Below are positions 5,513 to 56,550 of a stretch of 64,000 bases of DNA, in pieces. Below the pieces are notes generated by a model. It was not told where the DNA came from and made no database searches. It saw only the letters and a program-made list of their open reading frames with translations. Position 1 is the first letter of the stretch; every line of letters starts with the position of its first letter. The position numbers and the translations under genes were made by a program. Source of the stretch: Yponomeuta sedellus (lineage: Eukaryota > Arthropoda > Insecta > Lepidoptera > Yponomeutidae); assembly GCA_934045075.1 (NCBI GenBank), contig OW203732.1, forward strand, positions 2,769,501 through 2,833,500. Direction: 5' to 3'.

Positions 5513-5612
5513 GCTCCCAATTTTCCAAATACGATGGATCAAATAGACCCAGAGTATTTTAGTACTGATGTCATAATAATTATACTTATACTGTAATAGT
5601 ACTTAGAGACGC

Positions 5613-5644
5613 AATTGAAGGGTTTTTTACAAAAACAATGTAAC
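5613..5644 (+). repeat. Left terminal inverted repeat of DUF7869-like transposon
   Basis: It begins AATTGAAGGGTTTTTTAC and pairs with the reverse complement of 8190-8221, 30 of 32 bases identical. The two differences are T/C changes near the inner end. Confidence 0.9.
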
Positions 5645-5721
5645 TAACAAATTTGTTCATTTTTCGTTTCTGGTATCACTGAAATCTTTATCCAATATTT
5701 CATCGACAAGTAAAATCCCCA

Positions 5722-5848
5722 TTTTGCAAAAACGACGTAATCAACAACAAAAACGCTGGAGAAAATCAGGTGGTTTTACAAAAACCACGTAATTTTTCTT
5801 ACTTTTTACAAAAATGACGTATGTGATGAATTTGCGTTGTTTTTGCAA
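5722..5848 (+). repeat. Subterminal repeat cluster, left end
   Basis: Four copies of a motif close to TTTTACAAAAANNACGTAA occur at 5722, 5774, 5804 and, inverted, 5832. They restate the inner part of the terminal repeat and are likely transposase binding sites. Two further copies lie at 7964 and 7994 near the right end. Confidence 0.75.
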
Positions 5849-5963
5849 TAACTAAACAGATTGACATGTGTCACTTTAAAAAGTGAAATGGGAGGTAGCT
5901 TATTAGGTTGGGAGGGAAAACCAGCTCAATAAATTGAAGGTTTTTTTGTGGTTTCGCATCATA

Positions 5964-7838
5964 ATGGAGAACGAGGTTGATATCAATAAAAATAACAGAA
6001 GAGCTAAGAAGCAGAAGAAAGAAGACGTGGTAAAATCAAAAAAAGCAAGAGGTGAAGAACACTTCAACCATAAAAACCAGTTGGTTCTAGCTCGTCAAAC
6101 CGGAGATGATTGCAGGTTAGTACCATAATTTTTTATCGTGTTTTCTGTTTCGTCGTTTTATGTTTCTGTTATGTTGACTAATTATTGTTTTTTTTCTAGG
6201 TGCACTCGCTTACAATGTTTCTCGAAAACATCTGCAGCTGAGAGACAAAACATTTTGGACCATTTCAACAGTATTGGTAACAAAAATGATCAGGACGCTT
6301 ACTTGATGGGCCTGATTTCAACGTCACCAGCCGAACGACATACCAACAACAATCCTCAGGTATTCCGTATGTCAACATTCAAATATAAAATACGTATAGG
6401 GCTGCAAGAAATTCCCACGTGTTTTACAGCATTCTGTAGTGTACATGGAGTCGGCAAAAACCGTGTTCGCCGCCTGCAACGATTGTTATCAGCAAATGTG
6501 GCAGTGCCTAAAGATCAAAGAGGAAAACACACTGAGAACAGAGCAAAGAAAACACCTGAACCTATACTGAAATTGATAAGATATCACATATCTTCATTCA
6601 AAGCAAGACAATCTCATTATTCAAAAAGAGATAATCCTAACTGCTTGTATTTACCAGAAGATTTGACAGTTAACAAAATGCATGAGATGTTTTTAAAATT
6701 GTTTTGGATTAATGTTAGCTACATTGTTTACTGGACTGTTTTTTCAAAGGAATATAACCTTAAGTTTGGGTTGCCACGCACTGACACATGTGCGATTTGT
6801 GATGCTTACAAGCTCAAGATTCAATGTGCAGCTCTGCCAGAAACTGCCAACATTCTACGAACTGAACACAGCTTACATCTTGCTAAAGCAGAAAAGTTTA
6901 GAGAAATAAAAAAAAGCCTAAAACAAAGAGCACAGAGAGGTGAAATCATGTGCTTAAGCTTTGATTACATGCAAAATCTTCCGCTACCTCACATTCGGAC
7001 AGGTGATGTTTTCTACAGTCGACAACTGTGGAATTTTGTTTTCGGAATTCATGACTTGGGACAGAATAAAGTTTGTATGAATAGTTACTTGGAAACAGAA
7101 GGGAAGAAAGGACAAAACGATGTGACATCCCTCCTACTAAAGTACTTTAATGAGCATGAAATACATAGTGAAAAGCTTGTACTCATTAGTGATGGATGTT
7201 CTGGGCAAAACAAAAATTATGTCATGATAAATTTCTTGTACGCCTTAGTTCATATTTTTGAACTATTCCAATCCATAAAATACATATTTCCAATACGGGG
7301 ACACACATACCTTCCAAACGATCAAGATTTTTCACTCATCGGTAGATTAAAGAAGAATAGTACTGTGGAAACTGATGAAGAATGGAATGACATAATCACA
7401 TCTGCACGCAAGAATCCTTCACCTTTTGAGGTAAAAACCGTGAAGCATGGTATGTTTTATGACATAAAAAGAGCTTTGGAACCATATTTTCTTAAACAGA
7501 GTAAGCCTGCAATGCGTATTAAAGAGGTACGTATGGTGAAAATAAAGAAGGATTCTCAATTTGTATATGTAAAGTATAACTTTACTGGAGGATGGACAGC
7601 AATAAACATCAGAAATAGGAGAACTTTACCAAGTGAAGTTAACTTCCATCCGCTTTATACTTCCAGCTTACCGATAAACCCATGCAAAGCCCAAGACCTA
7701 CAAAGGCTGAAAAGCTTTTTGTCTTCACCAATGAAGTGTGATTTCTATGACAAAATTTTGAATGGCCACATTGATTCAACTTTACAAGATGTAGATATTG
7801 ATATTGACCCAGAAGATAACAGTAGTGGAGAAGAGTAA
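5964..7838 (+). CDS. Probable transposase of uncharacterised family (DUF7869-like)
   Basis: Exon 1 is 5964-6115 and exon 2 is 6200-7838, joined across an 84-bp intron (GTTAGT donor, tttttttctag acceptor). The spliced product is 596 residues from ATG at 5964. The N-terminus is basic (KNNRRAKKQKKEDVVKSKK), a likely nuclear signal. A Cys cluster CRCTRLQC at 50-57 leads into a helical QNILDHFNSIGNKNDQDAYL stretch. HTH-like VGKNRVRRLQRLL follows. LPRTDTCAICDAYK holds a CxxC pair. The core has FDYMQNLPLP (D306), a conserved-looking VFYSRQLWNFVFGIHD, LISDGCSGQNKN (D382) and RGHTYLPNDQDF (D425, D427), which I read as an RNase H-like acidic triad. The tail is acidic. The family is common in insects; I recall it as DUF7869. 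Transposase function is inferred from the terminal repeats around it. Confidence 0.8.
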
Positions 7839-8189
7839 TCAAAATTTAATGTAGGCTAAGTAATAATAATATTAGTTTGTAGATTAATAAATAAGTTTCA
7901 TAAGTGTGAAAATAAACAAAAAATAGTACCAAAGTATGTTGTCTTATTTCACTTTTTTACAAATTTTGTGACAAAAACAATGTACATGCAATATTTTTAC
8001 AAAAATGACATAACTACTGCACATTTATCCTCATTTATTTCAAAAACTATAATCAGGATCATAGTCAAAATGTAGCACAACATCACTAATTAACATAGGT
8101 ATATTATCAAGTTAAATTAAGTCACACAAGAGAAAATTTGTTGACTCCAGATAATTTTTTGTTTCTCCTGTATAATAGTCCTCTAAAAA

Positions 8190-8221
8190 GTTGCGTTGTT
8201 TTTGTAAAAAACCCTTCAATT
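8190..8221 (-). repeat. Right terminal inverted repeat of DUF7869-like transposon
   Basis: Reverse complement of the left repeat with two mismatches, ending ACCCTTCAATT. It is followed by CAATTGC, which resembles the left flank GCAATT, so the exact element border is ambiguous by a few bases. Confidence 0.9.
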
Positions 8222-8229
8222 CAATTGCA

Positions 8230-9260
8230 AGTGCTTTTACAATGTATGATTTGTAATATATCATCGGGGAAAAGAAAGGTTTCCTTGATCGAGGGAAAAT
8301 TATCTATTTATTTAGAACACAAAACAGGTACAGACATATTTACCAAATTGACATACACATAGATCAGATCTGGCCCATAACGCTGAACTTGTGTACCTAG
8401 CATGCACTTAGAGTAACTAGACTAGACTGAAAACTTATATTAATCTCTCAGGGTGCCCTGAGAGCGCGTGAAATACGTGAAATTTATGAAAAATATCTAT
8501 GTCCACACCTGTGTTATCTGCCACCAGATCGTCGTTAGTACGACGCATCCTAACAATGGGGTTGAAAAAGAAGTATTATTTTCGTAAGTTTCTAAAGGGA
8601 AGGTAGAGGTTTGCGACTGCGATATCTAATATTAAATTTTATCAGAGACACGAGGGAGGGAGAATCTATTTTCGAAAGAACAATTTGAAATTGTACATAT
8701 CGAGCGAAGATATCGGTTTAACCTGTCAGGACCAAACTAATGAGGTATAATAGGTTACCTTAACTTATCTTGTATCTTAAACGCCTCTAGTGAAGACTTA
8801 TCTAACCGATCATTGGCAGGGAATTTATAGATATCATTAGTATTACATAGGTATTAATGTATTTTGAAAGTCAGTTAGAAATTACGATATTATTATCGAG
8901 ATAAAAAAAGTCGAAAAGGTAGCTGGAGATATACCATATAATTCATAGTGCGTTGATGAAACAGCTAAATTGCAAAGAGCCTTGTAAAGCTAACAGTTTT
9001 ACAATGAAACGTTTAAAGAAAACACTACAATTATAGTAATAGAGCGAAGGAAACACGTCATTAGTACCAATTTATTGCCACTGAACGATATTTTCTTGGA
9101 AATGTTCGGTGCAGTGGTGCAGTTGCCAAATAACGTTCACATCACGAAGCGACGAGCGTCGAGCGGTCGTAGCCTATCGCGTATCTCAGCTTTAGTAATG
9201 CGAAAACAGAAAGAATAGTGGTTAAAAGAACTACATGAACTATCATTTATACATGGACTT
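8230..9260. other. Unassigned intronic sequence
   Basis: Between the DUF7869-like transposon and a SINE C. I see no gene or repeat I can name. Confidence 0.4.
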
Positions 9261-27969: not shown

Positions 27970-29610
27970 GGGCGCAGTGATAAAAGCTCGCACAGGTCGC
28001 AGAAAAGGCTTTTTCCGACACTGGAACTTCAAGCAACCAAACAGCAATGCGAACAGCTATTAAAGGAGCGGGAGGAGAGTGAGTTCGAGGTTCAAAGAAT
28101 TGTGGAAAAGAACACCAAACTTAAAAATGATCTTGCTGAACTGGACATCATCTGCGAGGACCTCCGTGGACAGCGAGATGAACTCCAAAAAATTGTTTAT
28201 AAATATGATCAGTGCCGTGATACCCACGAAGTAGCCCTTCAGCGCATAAAGCTACTGGAATATCAGCTTTCTGAAGCGCATAAAGAACTCAGTGTGCTAC
28301 ATCAACAAAACCTTGACAGAGAAAGTGAAAATATATCATGTCTGTACAATGACTTAATAATCAACAATAGCACTAGTTGTCTTTCCTCACAAACTGAATC
28401 CTCCCAACCCAAAATGCCACTTCAAGGTTCCAACAAAATAAAACGGTACATTCGTACAAAAAGACATATTAAACGCATCAATAAAGCCTTGAAAAGCAAT
28501 AACCAGATTATGAAGTACATGGGTATTAAAAAACTTAATATTAGTCTGCAGAAGGACCTACTGGGAAACACAATGGAACATCAAGTAATAACAAGTGAAT
28601 ATGAGGAAAAAATTCAGGATCCTCACTCCCACATTCATAGTTTAGAAAAATCACTCAGTGACTTAGGCAAGCAGTACACTGAGGCACAAGAGGAAATGGA
28701 GGCATACGCAGCAGAACTAACAGCCTTAGGTACATATAATATGGATAGATTTCAGTCGCTAAGCAACAAAATATCAGCGGGTTCTTCATGTGCATCTTGT
28801 ATAATTCTACAAGATCAGCCACCAGCATCAACATCATGCCTCACCACACGACTGCATGGCACCACTGAGGATACAAGTCCAGCTGCGTTGCGTCTACCTC
28901 TAAGCACTACTGAGATAACTCACAGCCAGCCTGAATCAACCACCATTAGCATGACCGGCCCGGCAGTAAAACAAGAAAGGAGGACTGTAATCTTCTCTGA
29001 TAAGATAGGTGCAGGGTTAGGTCCTTTGTTGAATGACAGGCTGACACAGAATGTGCTGAATAAATGCTATCCCCATTCAAGTTTTACTGACATTGTTAAA
29101 GAGCTGTTTAAAAGCCCAATACAGAACGACACAACCTACATTTTATTAGTAGGAAATAGCCAAGGTGTTAAAAAGACTGATATAAACAATATATTTGAAT
29201 TATATGGTCAAGCTAAAGATGTCAAACCGTGGATGGGAAAATTAGTGTTTTGCGCTTTCCCATATTCTCAGTCCCTGTCAGCAAAAGAAAATAATGACAT
29301 CCATAGCTTGAACATACACATTCACCATTTGACATGTCGTCATAGTGACATATCATTTTTTGATCTTAACAAATTTGTTAAGAATTACTTTTTGACGCGA
29401 GATACTGTGTACCTCACGAAAAATAGTCGACGTAAGTTAGCTATTTTGTTAGCTTACAATATTTTTGACTCTGTGGCTATAGGAATTATAACACAACCTG
29501 ATAAGAATGACAACCGTGTTACTAGTATTAGTAATAATTCAAAATCGGGCTCAAACACACAGTCAGTGGCTTTAAACTGCCATCGCAGACAAAGGAAAAC
29601 CCTAAGTTAG
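27970..29610 (+). pseudogene. Non-LTR ORF1: coiled coil plus esterase-like domain
   Basis: The frame is open from 27970 to a TAG at 29608-29610 with no in-frame ATG near its start; an apparent start at 28102 is GTG. The first 120 residues are heptad-rich (LEYQLSEAHKELSVLHQQN), a coiled coil for trimerisation or RNA binding. A basic stretch (KRYIRTKRHIKRINKALK) follows, then a Ser/Thr-rich linker. The C-terminal 170 residues resemble the SGNH esterase of CR1-type ORF1 proteins (TYILLVGNSQG, PYSQSLSAKENNDIHSLN, FFDLNKF). Where relatives have a Gly-x-His-Leu ending motif this copy has DTVYL, so the catalytic His appears missing. ORF2 overlaps its end in another frame. Confidence 0.7.
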
Positions 29611-32433
29611 GTATCAATTTAGTTGCACAAAATATACAGGGTTTTTCCGGCAAAGACAATTTAATTGAACTATTTTTAGCAGATTTCAATGTAGATATTT
29701 TGTGTTTAACAGAACATTGGCTGAAACATTCTGAAATGTCATTTACTTTAAAAGACTATTTAGCAGCAAGCACTTTTAACCGACAACACTCAATAAGAGG
29801 AGGTTCAATGATCTTTGTCAAAAGTAGTTTGAAAATGAAAGAAAGAAAAGATATTGTCAGTCTATCTGTTGAACGTTTAATTGAGATATCGTGTGTGGAA
29901 TTGGATAGGTATATAGTTATGTGTGTTTATAGGCCGCCACAATCAAATTATAATGAATTTGAATTACTTATGGAGGATGCCTTAAAACGCCTATTCAGTA
30001 CTACGAAGAGCATAGTGGTGTGTGGGGACATCAATATAGATTTCTTAGTTCAAGGTCCACTTAAAACTAAACTCGCAAGCCTTTTCAGGTCATATAATTT
30101 AGATAATTTATTTACAGAACCCACTAGAACAACTGCTACTAGCGCTACCTGCATAGATAATGTCTTTTGCAATTGTGAATATTTAGATAAAGAAGTCATA
30201 TATAAATTACAGTCGGACCATAGCGGGCTATGGGTAGTCCTACCGTCAGTACTGGAAGCAAAAAAATGCAATGAATTAAATTGTAGGCCAATAAAAGAGA
30301 AAAAAATTGAATTATTTAAAAGAAATATAAATATAAAGTTAAATTCGTTGAATTTCGATAGCAATGATCCGAATACGTTATATCAAGTATTGTTTTCAAC
30401 CATATCAAAAGAATTTGAACATGTTTTTAACGTAAAAAAAATTACAGAGTTAAAAAGCGGGTTTTCAGAATGGGCAACGCCAGGTATATATAGAAGTAGG
30501 AAAAGGCTTTATGAATTGTATGAAGAAAAACAATTCAATCACGATCCGACGTTCAAAGAGTACGTAAAAAAATATTCAAAAACTTTTAGACAAACTTGTT
30601 TAACAGCCAAATCGATTAGTATAAGTAAAACAATTATGGCGTCTACTAATAAAATAAAAACAGTCTGGCAAGTAATTAACAAAGAAACAGGTAAAACGAG
30701 ACCTAAGGACCAGGGATTTGCGTTGAAGATCGAAGGTAAGTTAGTTAATTCGAAGAAGGACATAGCAGAAATATTTCAAACTTTTTTTAAAAACATGCCA
30801 CTGCATATAACGGCTAGCTTAAATTCTTCCTCCCAAATAGCCGATACCTTACTTTTGGAAAGTACAAATCCATGTAAAGTTGACTTCCAATTCTCCCATA
30901 TAACTACCTTAACTATTGTCAAAACATTTAAAGAGTTAAACTTAAAAAAGACTGAAAATTTGTGGGGGTTATCGGTTAAATTAATATCCACTGTAATCAA
31001 TATTCTAGCACCTTACCTTGCTTTGATTTTTAATAAATGTGTTGACCAGGGAACCTTTCCCAATCTATTAAAGTTAAGTAAAATCGTACCCTTGTTTAAA
31101 TCTGGTGATAGTGAAGATCCAAATAATTTCAGACCTATAGCAATACTGCCGGTGCTAAGTAAAGTTTTTGAGAAAGTAATATTACATCAATTGCAAACTC
31201 ATTTTAGTATAAATAAGCTCTTCCATAAGAAACAGTTCGGGTTTACAAAAGGCCGCTCAACGACGGAAGCAGGCATAGCGTTAGTAAAGCATATCTTTGA
31301 GGCGTGGGAGGAGTCGCAGGATGCCATTGGGGTTTTCTGTGACCTTTCTAAGGCGTTTGACTGCGTTGACCACGAAACACTTCTCATAAAATTGCACCGA
31401 TATGGTTTAAGTAACTAATCACTAAGTCTTCTTCGATCTTACTTAACAGACAGAATTGTAAAGGTTGATATTAATAGAGTTAAATCCTTGGGTTCTGATG
31501 TAAAAGTAGGAGTCCCTCAAGTTCTATACTGGGTCCGTTCCTTTTTTTGGTATATATAAATGATTTGCCCTACCTAGTAGAAAAGCTTTCGCAGATAGTG
31601 TTGTTTGCAGATGATACTTCCTTAATTTTTAAAGTAAAGAGAGGTATAAGTAATGTAGACGATGTAAACAATGCTTTATCTACTATTCTAAACTGGTTCA
31701 CTATAAACAATCTGATGCTAAATGCAAAAAAGACAAAATGCATCAAATTCTCACTACCCAATGTTAAAAATGTTGACACGAGTTTAAAAATATCTGGTGA
31801 GAGGCTAGAGCTGGTAGAGTCCACGCTTTTTTAGGCATAACGATAGACTCAAAACTGCAATGGGGTCAGCATATTGGAAAACTGTCGGGTCGGTTGAGTT
31901 CAGCAGCGTTTGCAGTCAGAAAAATTAGACAACTTACAGACGTGTCGACGGCGAGGCTGGTCAATTTTAGTTATTTTCACAGCGTCATGTCGTATGGTTT
32001 GTTATTATGGGGACGGGCAGCAGATATAGAAAACATATTTGTCTTGCAAAAAAGAGCAATAAGAGCTATTTACAACTTAAACAGTAGAGAATCGCTAAGG
32101 GAGCGCTTTAAAGAAATAGGCATTCTTACACTGGCTTGCCAATATATATTCGATACTATAATGTATGTCCGAAAAAATATAACAATGTTCAAATTAAATA
32201 GGGACGTTCATAACGTAAACACAAGGAATAGAAACAAGGTTGCTTGTACTAAATCCCGATTAGCCAAGGTAGGCACATCATTTGTAGGTTACTGCGTTCG
32301 TTTTTACAACAAAATTCCGGAACGTGTTCTATGCTTGTCTGAAAATAAATTTAAAACTTTCATTAAAAATTCGCTATGTAATAAGGCATATTATAGAATA
32401 GACGACTATATAAACGATCCTAATCCGTGGTAG
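29610..32433 (+). pseudogene. Non-LTR ORF2: endonuclease and reverse transcriptase, damaged
   Basis: The reading starts near INLVAQNIQGFSGK (29613), the first strand of an apurinic-type endonuclease, with LTEHWL, VYRPPQSNY and DINIDF following and SDHSGLWV near 30210. The reverse transcriptase has FRPIAILPVLSKVFEK, GFTKGRSTTEA, DLSKAFDCVDHETLL and the catalytic FADDTSLI near 31610. A C-terminal domain ends YYRIDDYINDPNPW. Damage: a stop at 31416-31418, a one-base loss near 31519 just before the SILGP motif, and a one-base loss in a T run near 31830. Family: jockey superfamily (Daphne/CR1-like); the exact clade needs a tree. Confidence 0.88.
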
Positions 32434-49578: not shown

Positions 49579-49592
49579 TTTAAATGACTTAA

Positions 49593-52582
49593 CCTCGTAA
49601 GGCCCAAGGTAAAAATTGCTCTTTATGCATAACTACCCAATGTGCTTAATTGAGGACATAAACATTTGAAATGCTTCAGACCCACACATATTTTATAGAA
49701 AAAAACAACCTTAGCTATATCTTAATAGGTTCCCCTATTAGTTACATGTGTAAATAGGTTAGGAGAACATTTTCACATGAGCAAAATTGCGTTTTATTTT
49801 GTTCTCAAATGAGTGCATTGGGCGTTAGTTGTAAAAATAATCTTAATTTTGATGTCATCATTCAAGAACACTGGGTCTTAATACAAACATCACAAAGTAA
49901 ATGAAAAAGTGGTTTATTCTTCTGTTATTATTTATAATCTTATTAATAGCAAACAAAAATAAACAATCAAAACACAATAACATAATCAGTCTCTTATAAT
50001 TATCATAATCAGTCGAATACTTATTTTAAAAAACCTGAAATAGTAGAAACAGTTGTACGTTTTTCAAACGCTAGGAATAATCTTAATCTAATCATTAATT
50101 AAATACTTTTATTTAAGCAACTCTATTAAATAAAGTGCCTTTCACAACCAGATTGTAGGAACTTAAAATCCTCTTAGTACCATGACTAGTATCTAGGAAA
50201 AAAAATCTACTCATGAAATTCTTTATAACAATTTCTTTGTTTATTGAGACACAAGAATACATTGCAAGTGCTGCATTTGGTCCGAGATTTGTTATAGTGG
50301 CAATTACGGCATCGTGATTGCTTTGTTTCATGTAGAGGCATATGTTTTGAGCTTTGCTGACGGCGTTTCTTCGATGGTACTTCAGTAGAAGGTCTTCCTT
50401 TCTTCCGTTTTAAGATTGATTCTGATTCATCTTCGTTGATTGAATCAGTGCAGTCTTCTTCTGTATTCTGCTCAATAATTTTTTCGCCTAATTCCATTTT
50501 AAAATTGCGCAGTTGCTGTATCTTCTTTACTGGCACGCCTTTTGTAATCTGCTCATTTTTATATTGTATCCATGAATTAGATACCGCTAAATCGAGCATG
50601 TGCGAGAAAAAACGTTGAGTCCATTTTCTTGTCCTGTATCGAAAAGGACAGACAGATAACATTCTGTCAGCCAAATCAACGCCCCCCATGAAAGCGTTGT
50701 AATTGCGAATGACTCTCGGCCTGCTGACATCGACATACCTTTTATCGTGCTTGCACCACCGTCGGCATAGGTCTTCAGGATCTTTAGCCTCAACTGTAGA
50801 CAGCATGAGTACCGGTTTGTTGTCAAACCATTTAGTTAATGCAACCTTGTCGTCTTCCCTAACAATTGAGCTCACACTTCCTCTGCCACGTCTTTTTAGG
50901 ACTTTGTCGTCAATCAACTTATCTCTGGCAACAGCTGGTACTCTGTTTTTTTGGATAGTTCCCGTACACCCAATACCGTCCTGAAGGAGTCTATCAGCCA
51001 ATTTCACTGTGGTGAAGTATCTGTCAATGTATAGGGTATGTCCAGGAACAAGAGACTCAGCTAAAGACAGTACTGCCTTATCTCCTAACCCAAAACTTGT
51101 AGATTCGAATTGCGGATAGGTCGTATTCCCTTGATATACGTCAAAGTCGCAAACTAACCCATTGGGATTGGCAAGCACAAATGCTTTTACACCTACTGGA
51201 TTAGGCTTTCCAGGGCAATATTGCTTGATTCCACACGAACCCGTGAAAGGAATTATCATTTCGTCGATTGATAATTTATTTTCTTTATGTTGTCTTTTGC
51301 AACCGGCTTGAATTTTGTCAATAAGTGGTCTCACTTTCCAGAGTTTATCCTTAGCCCGAGCGTCAGCAGCAATATCATCGTCATAAACAAATTTAAGTGC
51401 GTTTCTCAATTGCATGTAACGATTACGAGGCATATTGTCAGCGATCACAGCTACTCGCCATTTTCCTTCCCAATATTTCCTCAACCAAGGATAGTTTATA
51501 GTTGACATCACAAATGATATGCCAATGTGCGCATACAGTTCTGCTTTGGTCAGATTCAAGCTTTTACCGTGTATTTTTATGCCTGTTTGATTTGTGCATT
51601 GAACAATAGTATTGATAAGATCATCATCAATATACTGCCTAAACAAACTCATCATATCGGTCGCCTCTAGAACGTTGGGTAAGTAACTAGGTTGTAGCAC
51701 TTCTAATTCCTGAGGAGCGAAGTTTTTTTGTGACCAACCTGTATTCATGGAATGGTGCTGAGCTGGTATGGTTTGACCTTGACGTCCTCTATTTGAAGAA
51801 CAGCTGCCCCTGGTCCTACCGCGTGCTGTTCCCGGTCGTGTAACTGTCACGTCATGTACAGTTTCAGGTTCAGGCTCAGAGTCCGATTCGCTGGTGTCAT
51901 CACGTTCCTCGGTGAGTACAAACTCTGGGTCAGAATATATGTCACCCCCATATTCTTGTCCGATATCTTCTAAATCTGATTGATCCAGCAGCAGCTCCTC
52001 AACGTCTTCATCTCTCAAATCTATAAAACAAACGAAAATATGAAACCAAAGTATATACTAAAGTACAACCCAATGTGATCAAATAATCACAAAAAAAAAC
52101 ACAACATGTATGATAAGTAATGCCCACAGTGAACAAATGATCACATAATTTTACGATGTAAAGTTTTGACCTTTGAAAACTTACTAGTGATAAAACTATT
52201 CCTGATACAATAAACTCCTACATTTTGTCTCTCAAATTAATGTATTGCATGTCTTGGCAGATCAAAGATTTCATAGATAAATCATGATAAATACTTACTT
52301 CGTGTGCGCCGATGCTCCCGGTTCGCCATTTTGCAAGGAAAAGACAGATTTCACGTGATTGGTTAGTAAATCTACTCCTGTGAAACTGACGTATACGTTC
52401 GAACCAATCAGGAAATGATGTTTCGAGTAAGATTTACGCGCCAATTTTCAAATTATCTTTGAATGATTTATTTGTTATCAAATGATCACACTGGGTCTTA
52501 ACTCGCACGAAAAATAAATAAGCCTTGGGTATGAGGGATGTCTTTAATTCAGGATCAAATGAGTACATTGGGCCTTACGAGG
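49593..52582 (-). mobile_element. Complete piggyBac element
   Basis: TTAA duplications lie at 49589-49592 and 52583-52586. The terminal inverted repeats share CCTCGTAAGGCCCAA, then diverge by one base and share GTA. Subterminal motifs related to the ends (ATGAGTRCATTGGGC, CACTGGGTCTTAA) occur at 49807, 49867, 52486 and 52559. The 2990-bp element carries one intact gene on the minus strand and looks potentially autonomous. It landed next to a SINE A fragment at 49538-49578. Confidence 0.93.
50207..52329 (-). CDS. piggyBac transposase, intact, two exons
   Basis: Exon 1 (52299-52329) encodes MANREHRRTR. A 278-bp intron (GTAAGT donor at 52293-52298, ttgttttatag acceptor at 52021) joins it in frame to exon 2 (50207-52020). 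The product is 614 residues, the usual length for the family. The open frame from 52018 alone starts with TTG, so the upstream ATG exon is needed. An acidic N-terminus (about residues 12-65) precedes the DDE_Tnp_1_7 core. Catalytic aspartates expected from piggyBac biochemistry are D263 (LSIDEMIIP), D343 (LYIDRYFTT) and D459 (MGGVDLADRM). A basic patch (KKRRQ) and a C-terminal Cys-rich finger (CRNCHYNKSRTKCSTC) bind nucleus and end DNA in relatives. No frameshift or stop is present. A polyadenylation signal lies at about 50109-50114. Confidence 0.94.
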
Positions 52583-52848
52583 TTAAAAGAAAAAGGAGGT
52601 TCTCAGTTCAAAGCGTATTTATCGTTTTTACATATCTGCAAGCAAACGAGGAATCATAGCGTATTGTTTATGCATAATTGTTTATTAATGCATATAAGGT
52701 TAACAAACTTCTCTTATATTCTATATTTGATAAATTCCTCTTTTTAGCGTGTTTTCAAGGCTGGTCCCAAGTTTAATAAATTAATCGATCGAGATCTAAC
52801 GGCAATGTTAGATCTCGAAATTATTTATATAAATGCGTCTTTCTTAGT

Positions 52849-55992: not shown

Positions 55993-56550
55993 ACTAGGCG
56001 ACCCAGCGAACTTCGTACCGCCGTACAGTCGATTCGTTAATTTAATTTAATTTTTCTCTCCGTAAGAACCACTCTCGTACTTAAAAGAATGTTCTAAAAA
56101 AAGACTTAGCGAAATCGGTAGAGCTGCTCTCGAGATTTGCGCTTACCAACACATTCAGCGATTCATTTTTATATTATAGACTAGCTGACCCAGCGAACAT
56201 CGTACCGCCTATCAATCGATTCTTTCAATTTTTTTTATTTTTCTCTCCGTATGAACCATCCTCGTACTTCAAGGAATATTCTAAAAAAATAATTAGCGAA
56301 ATCGGTTCAGCTGCTTTCGAGATTTGCGCTTACCAACACATTCAGCGATTCATTTGTATATTATAGACTAGTTGACCCAGCGAACTTCGTACCGCCTAAC
56401 AGTCGATTCTTTAATATATTTTTTTGTTTCTTTTCGTAAGAACCATCCTCATACTTCAAGGAATATTCTAAAATTAGCGAAATCGGTTCAGCTGCCCTAG
56501 AGATTTGCGCTTACCAACACATTCAGCGATTCATTTATATATTATAGATA
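55993..56550 (+). repeat. Three tandem copies of a 187-bp repeat
   Basis: Units begin CTAGNNGACCCAGCGAAC at 55993, 56181 and 56368 and end TATATTATAGA. A single copy lies at 20267-20490. It is probably a Helitron-like non-autonomous repeat. Confidence 0.85.

Follow-up and report, generated by a model that had tools for sequence, protein, structure and literature searches.

What is the 596-residue protein that lies between inverted repeats in a 64-kb stretch of the Yponomeuta sedellus genome (hereafter the window; C12:2769501-2833500 of a 657.5-Mb genome in 57 contigs), and what kind of element does it belong to? Our analysis suggests that the gene and its repeats probably form an autonomous DNA transposon of the cut-and-paste type that belongs to the Sola superfamily, with Sola2 as its likeliest group. 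The protein, which carries the Pfam domain DUF7869, is very probably the transposase of this element, because copies stop at the same ends, relatives have empty sites, and a DDE-type (aspartate-aspartate-glutamate) core is predicted within it. The initial annotation, made from the window's letters, had likewise called this a DNA transposon with a DUF7869-like transposase, and had placed it at 5612-8226; the element proper occupies 5617-8217 (2601 bp), or 5613-8221 with its target site duplications, so that the earlier right limit falls 5 bp outside the duplication. Its features, in window positions, are as follows.

5613-5616, no strand: left target site duplication AATT, recognized as a duplication from the single-AATT empty sites of the sister copy on contig C20
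5617-5645, plus strand: left terminal inverted repeat, GAAGGGTTTTTTACAAAAACAATGTAACT, its end at GAAG set by the AAAT and ATAT duplications of relatives
5723-5820, plus strand: left subterminal repeats, in which a TTTRCAAAAAYNACGT-like motif occurs three times (5723, 5775 and 5805), from a motif search
5932-5947, plus strand: internal end-like sequence AATTGAAGGTTTTTTT, directly before the start codon, with a similar one in the C20 copy
5964-6115, plus strand: transposase exon 1, from the open frame and homologue alignment
6116-6199, plus strand: intron, GT..AG, at a position common to several homologues
6200-7838, plus strand: transposase exon 2, including the predicted DDE-type core with D306, D382 and D425, from the open frame, alignment and model
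7886-7916, plus strand: two polyadenylation signals AATAAA (7886 and 7911), from a motif search
7966-8016, plus strand: right subterminal repeats, which carry the left motif in direct orientation, from a motif search
8189-8217, minus strand: right terminal inverted repeat, two mismatches against the left, from arm comparison
8218-8221, no strand: right target site duplication AATT, adjoining the right inverted repeat

The terminal inverted repeats open with GAAGGGTTTTTTACAAAAAC. They had been described as 32 bp long with two mismatches; the repeats and both mismatches are real, but that length included the AATT duplication, and the true length is 29 bp. With AATT added, the arms (5613-5645 and 8189-8221) match at 31 of 33 nucleotides, compared with a best 33-nt match of 22 in 40 two-base-block shuffles of both end regions. 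The subterminal repeats and polyadenylation signals reported earlier are present too: a TTTRCAAAAAYNACRT-like motif occurs at 5723, 5775, 5805 and 7996 and nowhere else in the window, while its shorter core is found eight times in the 2.6-kb element versus 17 times in the remaining 61.4 kb. Terminal and subterminal repeats have one core in common. The internal AATTGAAGGTTTTTTT could act as a false or alternative end.

The two-exon gene is free of lesions, as first proposed: the spliced product of 596 amino acids contains no stop and no frameshift. In an alignment with 12 homologues, the spliced junction, DDC/RCTRLQCF, agrees with Blattella, Colias, Callosobruchus and other homologues, and several apparently unspliced homologues read into the same acceptor position; the intron position therefore seems conserved in the family. 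The protein matches PF25273 (DUF7869) at E 3e-15, with 56.7 bits against a curated cut-off of 26, which bears out the earlier reading of its domain. Among 72 aligned sequences, 71 match DUF7869, and other Pfam families each match at most two at E<=1. In the exon-2 piece, the window copy carries the consensus residue at each column conserved in at least 90% of homologues. The 65 pattern matches in viral contigs and 10 in bacterial and archaeal genomes gave no confirmed relative.

The predicted structure has a ribonuclease H (RNase H)-like fold with a DDE-type core that DUF7869 partly covers. The putative catalytic triad D306, D382 and D425 (numbered D255, D331 and D374 in the exon-2 piece) is present in 71, 70 and 72 of the 72 sequences, respectively, and in the model occupies RNase H positions: in strand 250-256, just after strand 325-330, and in helix 372-385. 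A conserved predicted triad of this kind is what would be expected of the DDD (three-aspartate) transposases of Sola. A sequence search for a solved structure found no match (best E 1.7).

A genome search with 5600-8240 recovered one full-length copy (C20:14381236-14383800), a second on C16 that is broken up by other DNA, and six relatives that share 65% of their nucleotides across about 640 bases; in 657 Mb, only three copies of the subfamily were found. Similarity between the C20 and window copies ends at identical element ends, and similarity beyond the ends, sought in the C20 copy and at the C16 copy's left end, was not found. The two full copies differ at 19 of 2561 aligned sites (<1%), which indicates that the lineage was recently mobile, and the C20 copy lacks 48 bases, in gaps at 6496-6498, 7857-7860 and 7969-8009; the third of these gaps falls within the right subterminal region. 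An exact 25-nt end sequence, with C or G allowed at one position, occurs at 15 places in the genome, and its reversed control nowhere. These places form seven convergent pairs, every one of which encloses a DUF7869 match, plus a lone end that is part of the broken C16 copy. The nearest homologues in the genome are flanked by these same repeats.

A perfect 4-bp duplication lies directly outside GAAG...CTTC in 12 of the 14 copies counted, the count leaving out one-ended copies (C16, C16:2904093 and two further members of a C4 family). Ten duplications are AATT (window, C20, C9:24422674, C9:7894161, C6, C25, C14, C30, C20:14282017 and C4); the other two are AAAT (C12:3252623) and ATAT (C26:542731), so that all 12 fit the pattern AWWT (W, A or T); AATT occupies 675 of the 63997 tetranucleotide positions of the window. 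Because the AAAT and ATAT duplications lack the AATT palindrome, they fix the element end at GAAG. For AATT alone, the palindrome would have allowed insertion with zero duplication at AATT-bearing ends; this was rejected, since empty sites have one AATT and filled sites two, and the AAAT and ATAT cases settle the boundary.

Joining the flanks of an insertion with one target copy and searching the genome yielded empty sites with a single-copy target for four insertions (C20, C6, C12:3252623 and C9:24422674). The C20 copy sits in a multicopy repeat, many copies of which match across the junction; the four inspected (L066-L069) are uninterrupted there and have one AATT. The C6 relative (L014, C6:12697206) has an empty counterpart with one AATT 11 kb away (L065, C6:12685906), and filled and empty flanks differ at 0 of 1010 and 1 of 1137 positions (1 in 2143 overall); either the stretch was duplicated locally before the element inserted, or the assembly placed two haplotypes in tandem. 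For the C12:3252623 relative, within a repeat, the exact junction with one AAAT was seen in nine of 11 loci examined, and for that at C9:24422674, within another repeat, 21 matches of 90-100% identity span the junction, as judged from table rows rather than letters. The C26:542731 and C4 insertions gave no paralogous empty site (4/4 candidates scored were the insertions themselves). For C9:7894161 and C25:7427165, with 40 of 182 candidates scored, nothing but their own halves crossed the junction, and a single short match in the C9:7894161 flank lies off it. The C30 and C20:14282017 copies are not in this tally.

Together, these observations suggest how the element may move. Its single spliced gene would give a transposase with an RNase H-like core and the DDD triad, which probably binds the TTTRCAAAAAC sequence repeated in the terminal and subterminal repeats. 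The core would cut at the GAAG ends, where copies stop, and the element would be joined to target strands offset by 4 nt at an AWWT site, with AATT favoured. The 4-bp target is thereby duplicated, as the empty sites of relatives, including those of the close C20 sister, show.

Placement in Sola follows from comparing this anatomy with published descriptions. Sola elements, as characterized in excerpts of PMC10741241, have DDD transposases, 4-bp duplications, mostly 2-9 kb of length and inverted repeats of 11-1124 bp; the 4-bp duplications, the single targets of the four empty sites, the 2601-bp length and the 29-bp repeats all fall within this description. In the parts of PMC3627910 on amoebozoan elements, three Sola2-type families of one species have AWWT duplications, and Sola2-type families of another have ATAT, AAAT and ATTT. 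Sola families of Trichoplusia ni are listed, from earlier studies, among elements found inserted in baculovirus genomes (excerpt of PMC8634313), a parasitoid wasp is reported to carry Sola or Sola2 elements (excerpt of PMC7822920), and Sola2 is also reported in insects as families of miniature inverted-repeat transposable elements (MITEs). The idea of an undescribed superfamily is accordingly not well supported and probably wrong, Sola2 being known, if little studied: a DDD triad with a 4-bp duplication matches Sola as described in these excerpts, and AWWT matches Sola2-type elements.

Several points weigh against this placement, or against parts of the evidence behind it. Membership in Sola is very probable and Sola2 the most likely group, by likeness of anatomy and published description rather than protein homology. 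As to AWWT, the excerpt of PMC3627910 gives it for individual Sola2-type families; it calls a 4-bp duplication consistent with Sola2 and does not make AWWT a group-wide rule. The amoebozoan elements in that excerpt are also larger, with an 888-amino-acid transposase and a 7-kb shared 5' part in one group, versus 2.6 kb and 596 amino acids here. Foldseek returned no match to the model at E<=0.001, the best being TnsB of Tn7 (1.1e-3), followed by NurA and Argonaute. Two of the 14 copies have mismatched duplications (C13:18317489, AATT/ATTG, and C18 322400-327400, with altered ends), and the window copy, whose right flank is repetitive from about 80 bp outside, yielded no empty site, its junction being touched only by its own halves among 40 of 114 candidates scored. 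Finally, the window and C20 copies differ by nine coding substitutions, every one non-synonymous and none silent, so no purifying selection is visible since the two split.

The alternative that survives best concerns activity only and is compatible with membership in Sola: an intact but silent relic, mobile recently and no longer transposing, is plausible, although we lean slightly away from it. The three subfamily copies in 657 Mb agree with such a relic, and the nine replacement changes together with an in-frame 3-nt deletion in the C20 gene are as expected of unselected decay. Conversely, the gene of the window copy is open and has plausible splice sites, its ends match, consensus residues stand at the highly conserved columns, and the two full copies are less than 1% apart. 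In structure the window copy is complete, and its lineage was mobile recently; the earlier suggestion that it may be active stands as no more than that, present activity being possible.

Rather unlikely is a superfamily of its own, in which an undescribed DUF7869 group of equal mechanism (DDD, 4-bp AWWT) converged on a similar target. In its favour, our literature searches did not find the term DUF7869, no Pfam family besides DUF7869 is shared by the homologues beyond the two matches noted above, and the likeness to Sola2 is known from descriptions rather than alignment. Against this stand the triad, duplication and size shared with Sola, the AWWT shared with Sola2-type elements, and the insect records of Sola2 (MITE families and the wasp), all as given in the excerpts above. 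A broader form of the idea seems a shade less likely still: DUF7869 elements would be a superfamily apart from Sola that uses AATT as piggyBac uses TTAA, with intact young copies as a potential insertion tool and many 'uncharacterised' insect proteins as its transposases. The functional assignment of DUF7869 is independent of the Sola2 placement. We know of no biochemical study of Sola2; among the papers searched, none joined Sola2 with AATT, and the motif GQNKN appeared only in unrelated ones.

That the protein is a domesticated host gene with the repeats as remnants is very improbable: the open frame and conserved residues would suit it, but it is contradicted by the near-identical copy elsewhere, the intact ends on both sides, the sister's single-AATT empty sites and the lack of visible purifying selection. 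The window/C20 coding changes fit post-insertion drift, with no sign of host use. A piggyBac-like element with an AT-rich palindromic 4-bp target is scarcely credible, since piggyBac shares the 4-bp duplication and DDD triad but TTAA, which is also the target of Sola3, is absent among the 12 duplications (AATT, AAAT and ATAT), and PF13843 does not match the transposase at E<=10, yet matches a piggyBac-type gene of the same window at 3.8e-66.

That gene, on the minus strand at 50207-52057, is a stop-to-stop frame of 616 codons and lies in a complete-looking piggyBac-type element at 49589-52586, with TTAA on both sides and the first 15 bp of its inverted repeats identical (CCTCGTAAGGCCCAA). Elsewhere in the window, a LINE-type (long interspersed nuclear element) retrotransposon at 27970-31418 has two long overlapping frames, the second with endonuclease and reverse transcriptase domains, the latter match truncated at the frame end. 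Seven transfer RNA-like matches over the 64 kb (4586, 9389, 22105, 23640, 45772, 54335 and 62620) are probably tRNA-derived short interspersed nuclear elements, and a 187-bp unit forms about three tandem repeats at 55993-56548.

DUF7869 genes are numerous in this genome, with at least 81 matches from the 80 of 452 candidates scored in a protein search. Nine distant loci (L026, L029, L030, L037, L039 and L043-L046) show no convincing terminal repeats within 1.5-kb flanks, and their ends may be further out. A more distant family (34% protein identity) has three copies (L040, L041 and L042, on C4, C16 and C18) that agree at 99.97% of positions in a stretch of about 3.46 kb and likewise end in AATT-GAAG; they probably reflect a burst of very recent date. 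Five DUF7869 matches of identical score, in 1107-codon open frames at C9:17624263, C10:22495060, C11:16389860, C15:8706817 and C36:19949982, seem to represent a further family that was copied recently.

The Pfam domain DUF7869, which lacks an assigned function, thus gains a likely role as part of a DDE-type transposase core, and its tie to a DDD core with an AWWT target duplication is the useful result. If this is true, many 'uncharacterised' proteins of insects and other invertebrates would be transposon genes rather than host genes. The window copy offers a compact, complete and recently mobile element, with ends and target defined, for an AATT-targeting transposase group.

Compared with known systems, the protein resembles the Mos1 transposase of Tc1/mariner in fold only (10% identity), and mariner duplicates TA, whereas the empty sites here indicate 4 bp. 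With piggyBac, the element has an AT-rich 4-bp target in common, but differs in its sequence (AATT/AWWT versus TTAA) and in having no PF13843 match. Pfam states no function for PF25273, while here the domain overlaps a predicted catalytic core within a transposon. Unlike the amoebozoan Sola2-type elements, the present element has no Fanzor partner gene; with the Sola2 group as described in excerpts of PMC3627910, PMC10741241 and PMC4455052, it shares a putative DDD transposase, a 4-bp AWWT-type duplication, inverted repeats and a size within 2-9 kb.
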